Source of the DNA: Bernardetiaceae bacterium | GTDB taxonomy: Bacteria > Bacteroidota > Bacteroidia > Cytophagales > Thermoflexibacteraceae | Direction of reading: 5' to 3' | Assembly (NCBI GenBank): GCA_025056255.1 | Contig: JANWVT010000004.1 | Location: 1 to 64,000 of the forward strand | DNA: 64,000 bases | Part shown: positions 60,017-61,046 of the stretch, piece after piece | Layout of the letters: the number at the start of each line of letters is the position of its first letter | Position numbering within the stretch: the stretch's first letter is position 1 | Notes under the pieces: generated by a model | The model's database searches: none | Told to the model about the DNA's origin: nothing | What the model saw: only the letters and a program-made list of their open reading frames with translations | Translations under genes and position numbers: made by a program

Positions 60017-60045
60017 ATTGCAAACCACAAAGCACTCGAAAAATT

Positions 60046-60105
60046 CAACTTATACAGCAGCGTGCAACGGCAGCGTGCAACGGCAGCGTATAAGTTGGAT
60101 TTTTT
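60046..60105 (+). terminator. Terminator of carA with a tandem-repeat loop (repeat element copy 3)
   Basis: CAACTTATAC (60046-60055) and GTATAAGTTG (60088-60097) are perfect inverted repeats, followed by GATTTTTT. The 32-base loop is AGCAGC plus two exact copies of GTGCAACGGCAGC, the unit also seen at 1.7 kb and 13.7 kb. The right arm and T-run resemble the end of copy 2. It starts 29 bases after the carA stop. Confidence 0.8.
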
Positions 60106-60145
60106 GTTAAATGCCCTCGTAGCATCGGCGCAACCATTAATAAAC

Positions 60146-60164
60146 TATGCAACTAAGTTGCATA
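60146..60164. promoter_or_regulatory. Nineteen-base palindrome, probable Fur/Zur-type operator
   Basis: TATGCAACTAAGTTGCATA has two perfect nine-base arms around a central A. It ends 43 bases before the MerC-like ATG. TTG inside it (60158-60160) and TAATTTGC (60182-60189) are 21 bases apart and may be the -33 and -7 elements, so a protein bound here would block the promoter. The layout suggests a metalloregulator of the Fur family; the identity is inference. Confidence 0.6.
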
Positions 60165-60207
60165 ATTAGGGTAAATTTCTCTAATTTGCAGCCTATTTAT
60201 TTTGTTC

Positions 60208-60573
60208 ATGCAAGCTAAACGCATTCTGGTTCCTGCTATATTTACCACGCTGTTGTTGCATTCGCTATGCTGTTTGTTGCCATTTCTACCCTTGGCAATA
60301 GGGGCAAGTAATGCCATGCTTGCACTTGCAAGCACGGTTGCCGGTTATCAAACTTGGCTTATTGCCCTACAACTTATGCTACTGGGCGTAGCTTTTTACA
60401 GAGCCTATCGCAGGGGTGCCAAGCGCAGCGACCGCATAGCTTTTTGGCTGCCTTTGCTGTTGAGTGCAGTAGTTGCCATTTATACGTGGTCGCAACACAG
60501 AGCAGTACAACAGGTGCAGCAGCAACCAGCAACATTTGGGGTAAAAAGATTGCAAAACATTGGGGTCAAATGA
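60208..60573 (+). CDS. MerC-like small membrane protein
   Basis: A 121-residue protein with four hydrophobic segments. The first holds HSLCCLLPFL, a His-Cys-Cys motif in a membrane helix like that of MerC/MerT mercury or zinc carriers. ATG 60208 is used, though TTG 60202 is in frame. The stop overlaps the next start (ATGA at 60570), so it is coupled to the His-rich lipoprotein. A palindrome upstream (60146-60164) suggests control by a metal-sensing repressor. A zinc role is inference from motif, operator and partner. Confidence 0.7.
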   Translation: MQAKRILVPAIFTTLLLHSLCCLLPFLPLAIGASNAMLALASTVAGYQTWLIALQLMLLGVAFYRAYRRGAKRSDRIAFWLPLLLSAVVAIYTWSQHRAVQQVQQQPATFGVKRLQNIGVK

Positions 60574-61046
60574 GAAATCTCTTGTTTTCTGTAATGGCTA
60601 TGGCTGCATGCTTGCTTGCATGCGGTCCGAGCGAGAAAGAGCAACAGCAACTTGCTGAGGCTATGCAGTATCATCAGCAAGCAATGGAATACGAAAAACA
60701 AACCATGGCTTTGCTCAAACAAGTCAAACAAGCAGTGCCTTTGTGGCAATCACGTGCCGACAGCCTTTCCAAAGCTGGCGCCGACTCGTTGGCAGCCTCC
60801 ATGCGCTCCTGGTTGGCAGAAGCTGAGCAAGTAGAAAAAGCCTTGCAAGAGTGGGGCAAAACAGTAGTAGAAGTCCCCGGCTATGAACACGACCACTCGC
60901 ACGACAAAGAAGGCGAAGCTCATCATCATGCTCATGAGCGCATAGAAACTACTCCTGAGCAAATGATAGCCATCCAGAAAGATTTGCGCGACAAGGTAGA
61001 GGCTATTAAAAACCGTGCACAGGAATTAGTGAATCAAATAAAGTAA
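60570..61046 (+). CDS. His-rich coiled-coil lipoprotein, probably metal-binding
   Basis: A 158-residue lipoprotein: lipobox LLAC (Cys 18), then a long helical coiled coil (QQLAEAMQYHQQAMEYEKQT) and a cluster of seven His among acidic residues, YEHDHSHDKEGEAHHHAHE (about residues 107-125), followed by another helix. The His cluster resembles metal-binding loops of zinc transporters and chaperones. It overlaps the MerC-like gene by four bases. I infer that it gathers or buffers a transition metal, probably zinc, at the outer or inner membrane. Confidence 0.78.
   Translation: MRNLLFSVMAMAACLLACGPSEKEQQQLAEAMQYHQQAMEYEKQTMALLKQVKQAVPLWQSRADSLSKAGADSLAASMRSWLAEAEQVEKALQEWGKTVVEVPGYEHDHSHDKEGEAHHHAHERIETTPEQMIAIQKDLRDKVEAIKNRAQELVNQIK

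Follow-up and report, generated by a model that had tools for sequence, protein, structure and literature searches.

A palindromic operator shared with zinc-type genes precedes a MerT-like protein and a His-rich lipoprotein, a probable Zur-controlled gene pair in Bacteroidota

Two overlapping genes in a 64,000-nucleotide stretch of Bernardetiaceae DNA (hereafter the window) encode a MerT-like membrane protein and a His-rich lipoprotein, and are preceded by a palindrome that recurs beside zinc-type genes of relatives. We read the pair, with a probability of roughly 0.7, as a zinc-starvation operon that would be repressed by zinc-loaded Zur, the lipoprotein capturing zinc and the MerT-like protein importing it. 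Control of the pair by Zur is well supported by sequence comparison; we infer its metal response, its role in transport and the direction of transport. Since the same switch stands in front of relatives' zinc-shortage genes, the two genes most likely form a module for scavenging zinc. For a large phylum in which a literature search turned up neither, the analysis offers a candidate Zur-box sequence and a list of targets, and it suggests that a mercury-named protein group serves zinc uptake. It also delineates a lipoprotein family, recognisable by an EVPG motif, a His loop and the invariant residues H35 and W95, for which both a metal and a partner are predicted.

Operator and candidate promoter

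The palindrome TATGCAACTAAGTTGCATA, at 60146-60164 of the window, reads TATGCAACT-A-AGTTGCATA. A sequence-only reading of this DNA had described it as a 19-base palindrome with perfect nine-base arms, and the sequence, read directly, bears this out: the two arms flank one central base. This 9-1-9, Zur-box-like operator has the core TGCAAC-N3-GTTGCA at 60148-60162, which ends 45 bases before the start of the 121-aa membrane protein gene (60208). Within the window TATGCAACTAAGTTGCATA is the sole match at up to three mismatches (0.05 expected from shuffles). A motif search of the whole 3.39-Mb genome found the exact core once, at 60148-60162, and 31 further one-mismatch cores, many of them intragenic.

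A possible promoter on the plus strand (60158-60188) comprises TTG at 60158-60160 and CTAATTTG at 60181-60188, which could serve as −33 and −7 elements. The proposed overlap of palindrome and −33 element holds in so far as the TTG lies inside the palindrome; the paired −7 element is an imperfect form of the consensus TAnnTTTG. Farther upstream, 3′ of carA, a hairpin with a T-run (60037-60107; z-score −5.5) is most likely the carA terminator. A sequence of about 13 bases that includes GTGCAACGG is directly repeated on its loop side, giving two TGCAAC half-sites.

The MerT-like membrane protein

The first gene of the pair (60208-60573, plus strand) encodes a 121-aa protein, assigned here from its open reading frame, family scores and alignment. 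As had been claimed, HSLCC lies within the first helix (residues 18-22). C21 and C22 are the only cysteines, and H18, C21, C22, P25 and Q55 are invariant across 11 aligned MerT-like homologues. MerT and MerTP are the best-scoring families, at scores below the cut-offs of the MerT models (23.6 against 32.9 for Pfam PF02411; 38.7 against 130 for NCBIfam). The MerTP fusion model matches 10 of the 11 homologues and CopZ models match two. The earlier description as MerC-like is better replaced by MerT-like. Membership of MerC (PF03203) was rejected, with 16.7 bits against a cut-off of 27.6 and one of the 11 homologues matched at E 0.01.

The protein had also been called four-helical, which is uncertain: the predicted model, of low confidence (pLDDT 66.9) and too weak to serve as a fold-search query, has three long helices, a short helix after the first and another at the C-terminus. 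In three other loci (L105, L093 and L094) the MerT-type protein is extended at its C-terminus by what resembles an HMA domain lacking CxxC; of this the window's protein retains a short FGVK tail. Given these extensions and the CopZ and MerTP matches, the ancestor of the short form may have been a MerT-HMA fusion.

The His-rich lipoprotein

The second gene (60570-61046, plus strand) encodes a lipoprotein of 158 aa, delimited by its open reading frame, an alignment and a predicted structure. The four-base overlap reported earlier is indeed present, as ATGA at the end of the first gene and the start of the second. The lipobox LLAC places the lipid-anchor cysteine, Cys18, at codon 60621-60623 (plus strand); Cys18, H35, W95, E101-G104 (EVPG), H109 and Q136 are invariant in 23 aligned members. 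The AlphaFold model is a three-helix bundle (mean pLDDT 89.8) with a low-confidence His loop. This loop between two helices, residues 97-128 (60858-60953, plus strand), holds EVPG and seven His and is the proposed metal site. The count of seven His given earlier was correct, and their span is shorter than the 19 residues then stated, namely 16 (107-122). The lipoprotein scored above the cut-off of no Pfam or NCBIfam family, named zinc lipoprotein and chaperone families included, and a fold search with its model returned no solved structure at E 0.001 or better.

The pair and its box in relatives

Of 39 relatives, 14 have a MerT-like homologue (E 0.01 or better), a count that includes the window's own genome; five weak matches without a locus were left out of the comparison. 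The MerT-like gene is followed directly, on the same strand, by the lipoprotein gene in L099, L076/L100, L077/L101, L103, L104, L105 and L106, and after about 580 bases in L102. An exact core lies 5′ of the pair in L099, L076/L100, L103, L104 and L106 and a one-mismatch core in L102 and L105; in L077/L101 the pair begins at a contig end. L077 belongs to Bernardetiaceae bacterium SKYG34, of the window's genus, and its match coordinates and scores are identical to those of L101, from the same genus. The joint occurrence of the two genes, which the earlier reading had set as a test of its proposal, is therefore seen in relatives of the genus and the family, where they stand together behind the box. 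The gene upstream of the pair varies, being by reading carA in the window and coaE-like in L099 and L076, which indicates that box and pair have remained linked. A ZigA-like GTPase gene comes after the pair in L076 (3.6e-172; 572.6 bits, cut-off 600). One further locus with a weak MerT match, L107 (E 1.2e-4), has no adjoining lipoprotein gene and was placed among the box controls.

The lipoprotein family was also followed on its own. Four members, used as queries against the genome collection, found 23 loci; together with others, and omitting L100, L101, L035 and L036 as second copies of L076, L077, L089 and L096, 31 loci were tallied, not all of them independent (L096 and L098 are close, as are L080 and L081). 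The core, at up to one mismatch, is present in 24 of the 31, L093 and L094 of Dyadobacter among them, with 31 sites against 0.58 in 100 shuffles; exact cores occur in 13 loci (14 sites against 0.02). Seven loci lack a core site, one of them being cut at a contig end. A MerT- or MerC-type gene is a neighbour in 19 loci (MerT in 11, MerC in 8). Other neighbours are a small CFFCGG protein (12 loci), CobW and Zur (6 each), and more rarely FolE and HisI (3 each), ZIP and HupE (2 each).

These neighbourhoods bear on the strongest competing explanation, that the pair is controlled by Zur and imports nothing, the lipoprotein being a zinc sponge or a chaperone for an envelope enzyme and the MerT-like partner loading or anchoring it. 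Twelve of the 31 loci have no MerT or MerC gene in the stretch fetched, the lipoprotein accompanies a ZIP gene in L095 and L097 and HupE/UreJ in L096 and L098, and the predicted model of the MerT-like protein is weak, all of which would suit such a role. Set against this are the 19 loci that do have a MerT or MerC gene, the ATGA overlap, retained in L099, L076 and L077 (L104 and L106 lack it), and the invariance of H18, C21, C22 and P25 in 11 homologues, which points to a metal path. We consider a sponge or chaperone unlikely and favour zinc import.

The box searched by DNA alone

A 14-base form of the box, TGCAACTNAGTTGCA, was found in 17 of 395 genomes of the class, against 3 of 395 for a reversed control. 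Sixteen loci outside the window's own genome were read (site G210 C17:68802 was left out). They hold a Zur-like FUR gene in eight cases, a CobW-type GTPase gene in five, MerC in two, HisI in two and FolE in one, so that 12 of the 16 have at least one of Zur-like, CobW (ZigA), MerC, HisI and FolE. None of these genes is found in the other four. One of them, L071, has an adjoining flavin oxidoreductase gene whose product shares 61-64% identity with an oxidoreductase of the CobW/HisI loci L065 and L066; in L075 the box adjoins what looks like a TonB receptor gene; and L060 and L064, as read, have no zinc link.

At the family level, exact cores number 23 in 11 of 13 genomes (control: one genome). 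The surroundings of all 23 were read, and zinc-type genes adjoin 22. They comprise the MerT-like/lipoprotein pair in G000, G396, G397, G402, G405 and G406; MerC in G398 (twice) and G400; CobW in G397, G399, G400, G404, G405 and G406; Zur in G402; FolE in G401; TonB receptors in G404 and G405; and a lipoprotein of about 400 aa in G400, G402 and G404. The site excluded from the zinc-linked count, G405 C268:2807, has the end of CobW on one side and an ABC-permease-like gene on the other. "LolD-like" ABC matches in the tallies are generic ABC matches and were not counted as evidence. The 400-aa lipoprotein, AztD-like and behind exact boxes in these three genomes (L124:2069-3274, L110:263-1528 and L131:368-1630), matches the zinc chaperone AztD in its G400 copy at 1.3e-29, under the cut-off, and the other two copies are 66-71% identical to that copy.

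MerC genes were collected without reference to the box, giving 17 in 16 of 99 class genomes. Thirteen of these loci carry the core at up to one mismatch, nine of them exactly, against a mean of 0.3 loci in shuffles that were crude (dinucleotide blocks, 20 rounds). Because the box is this frequent at MerC, MerC and the MerT-like protein look like alternatives within one regulon. The four loci without a core at up to one mismatch are L132, L133, L135 and L143; L133 is a CobW-MerC-FolE cluster, and in its genome the box precedes CobW. No core at up to one mismatch was found in 50 kb at any of 16 MerT/MerTP-type loci without zinc context.

Further copies of the palindrome near metal genes had been named as a test of the proposal, and they turned up beside genes for Zur-like regulators, CobW/ZigA, MerC, FolE and ZnuD-like receptors. 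The site is common to the zinc-shortage genes of the lineage (12/16, 22/23, 24/31 and 13/17 in the four sets above), which supports the view that TGCAAC-N3-GTTGCA behaves like a Zur box.

Regulator and other zinc genes of the genome

A Fur-family operator had been suspected and a search for a zur gene advised. The genome has two FUR-family genes, on contigs C107 (product of 141 aa) and C74, and the Zur-like C107 protein is the likely regulator, supplying a Zur-type regulator in the same genome as the box. On a profile built from the FUR proteins of box loci (14 sequences), the C107 protein scored 143.5 bits and the C74 protein 41.3; the box-linked proteins form one group that includes the former and excludes the latter, which is Fur-like. 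By sequence, the nearest solved relative of the C107 protein is a zinc uptake regulator, FurB, and the C74 protein is nearest to Fur. With the NCBIfam Zur model the C107 protein reached 32.2 bits, short of the 167-bit cut-off. The 12 kb surrounding this zur gene (L056), a place where a box is frequent, not required, gave no core within two mismatches.

The earlier reading advised a search of the genome for the palindrome before TonB receptor, CobW or ZIP/ZnuABC genes. A TonB receptor gene on contig C9 is preceded by twin one-mismatch cores spaced by 27 bases; its product matches ZnuD at 1.6e-26 and heme-receptor models better (2.1e-46), all under cut-off. The single ZIP gene has no box upstream, and a ZigA search of the genome gave no match. 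Nor did the genome show a clear ZnuB: its sole ABC-3 (ZnuB-type) match sits at threshold (20.2 against 20.1 bits), and the gene concerned looks like a FecCD-type permease.

One-mismatch cores also lie upstream of two MbnP genes (PF20243), at C52:97272 (L048, L057) and C63:225696 (L051, L058). The second MbnP gene is followed by that of an MbnH-like peroxidase and starts near that of a small protein with CGGKCHLMKQ. These cores are possibly part of the regulon and possibly due to chance. The MbnP family is linked with copper.

These two MbnP sites, and the varied metals of FUR-family regulators, would agree with an operator that answers to iron, copper or manganese, its FUR-family regulator then being something other than a zinc sensor. 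Such an operator is improbable given that the box is common to CobW/ZigA, FolE, HisI, ZIP, AztD-like and ZnuD-like genes, the Zur set of other phyla, and that the box-linked FUR group holds the C107 protein and excludes the Fur-like C74 protein.

Discussion

Box sharing and conservation of the pair, both seen at the sequence level, support the earlier proposal of a zinc-controlled uptake or buffering pair, of which we favour uptake. In the mechanism that we propose, zinc-loaded Zur (C107, 141 aa) would bind the palindrome and block the promoter, and zinc shortage would release it. Both overlapping genes would then be translated together, the lipid-anchored lipoprotein would bind Zn2+ in its flexible His loop in the envelope, and would hand the ion to the HxxCC of the MerT-like protein for passage across the inner membrane. 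Passage of zinc through the outer membrane would fall to a ZnuD-like TonB receptor encoded behind the twin boxes on contig C9. MerT passes Hg2+ across the inner membrane, and it is by resemblance that transport, and the metal and direction of transport, would extend to the MerT-like protein. Import is proposed on a single ground, that genes released by zinc shortage should gain zinc.

The arrangement resembles the Zur regulons of Bacilli, proteobacteria and cyanobacteria, which, as far as the excerpted texts go (PMC2770081, PMC6103462), likewise combine a palindromic box with a FUR-family regulator and include CobW/COG0523 GTPases and paralogues of zinc enzymes among their targets; 9-1-9 palindromes count among Zur-box forms (PMC6103462, in excerpt). 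It differs in the box sequence, TGCAAC-N3-GTTGCA, and in its targets, which include a His-rich lipoprotein besides MerT-like and MerC proteins. The excerpts of both papers name no Bacteroidota site, and the putative Zur sites in the available part of the COG0523 paper come from Bacilli, proteobacteria and cyanobacteria. Zinc homeostasis genes of Riemerella are described as previously unstudied in the portion seen of a paper on that organism. Among the titles and abstract openings listed in a search of open-licence literature, none reported a Zur box from Bacteroidota or Zur control of a MerT or MerC.

With MerT and MerTP (PF02411, NF033556, NF033560) the 121-aa protein shares a vicinal cysteine pair and a proline in helix 1. 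MerT has a second cysteine pair, in a cytoplasmic loop. The 121-aa protein, by contrast, has the one pair, C21 and C22, lacks an HMA domain, falls under all cut-offs, and has a box and neighbours of zinc type. MerC differs by its family score, yet in other genomes this small membrane protein of metal-transport type stands where the MerT-like protein does, next to the lipoprotein and the box. A mercury-resistance or mercury-uptake remnant, which would account for MerT and MerTP being the best-scoring families, is barely credible, and mercury resistance was rejected, because the scores lie far below the curated cut-offs, merR, merP and merA were not recognised among the open reading frames read (54-64 kb), the next two genes (GNAT and a DNA polymerase III subunit) do not make a mer-operon setting, and the box common to zinc-type genes is absent from the 16 MerT/MerTP-type loci.

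For a zinc-scavenging lipoprotein there are parallels among envelope proteins of zinc shortage. ZinT is a Zur-controlled zinc-binding envelope protein. AztD is another parallel, with an AztD-like lipoprotein behind the same box in relatives, as is ZrgA of Vibrio, Zur-controlled and zinc-binding according to the part of the source available (PMC9817125). Unlike these proteins, the window's lipoprotein has a predicted three-helix bundle with a His loop, and it exceeds the cut-off of no named family. A broader proposal seems to us evenly poised between right and wrong: that the chromosomal MerC and stripped-down MerT proteins of Bacteroidota collectively import zinc under Zur control, receive it from a new family of His-rich three-helix lipoproteins and, in genomes such as this one, do the work of ZnuABC.

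Two neighbours of the lipoprotein genes deserve a brief description. The small secreted protein of the CFFCGGxG(P/L)E type, which adjoins the lipoprotein in the 12 loci counted above (copies at L085:3511-3993, L078:2787-3251, L083:3576-4007, L115:1530-1967 and others), was presumed to be DUF3299, a name that was dropped when Pfam and NCBIfam gave no family for it. A second lipoprotein, of about 187 aa, is encoded 3′ of the genome's own TonB receptor gene (L055:6605-7168), in a copy that matches nothing, and also 3′ of the MerT/His-lipoprotein pair at L104:2382-2951 and L106:2484-3053, where the L106 copy matches the Riean_0653 model at 0.0013, under the cut-off.
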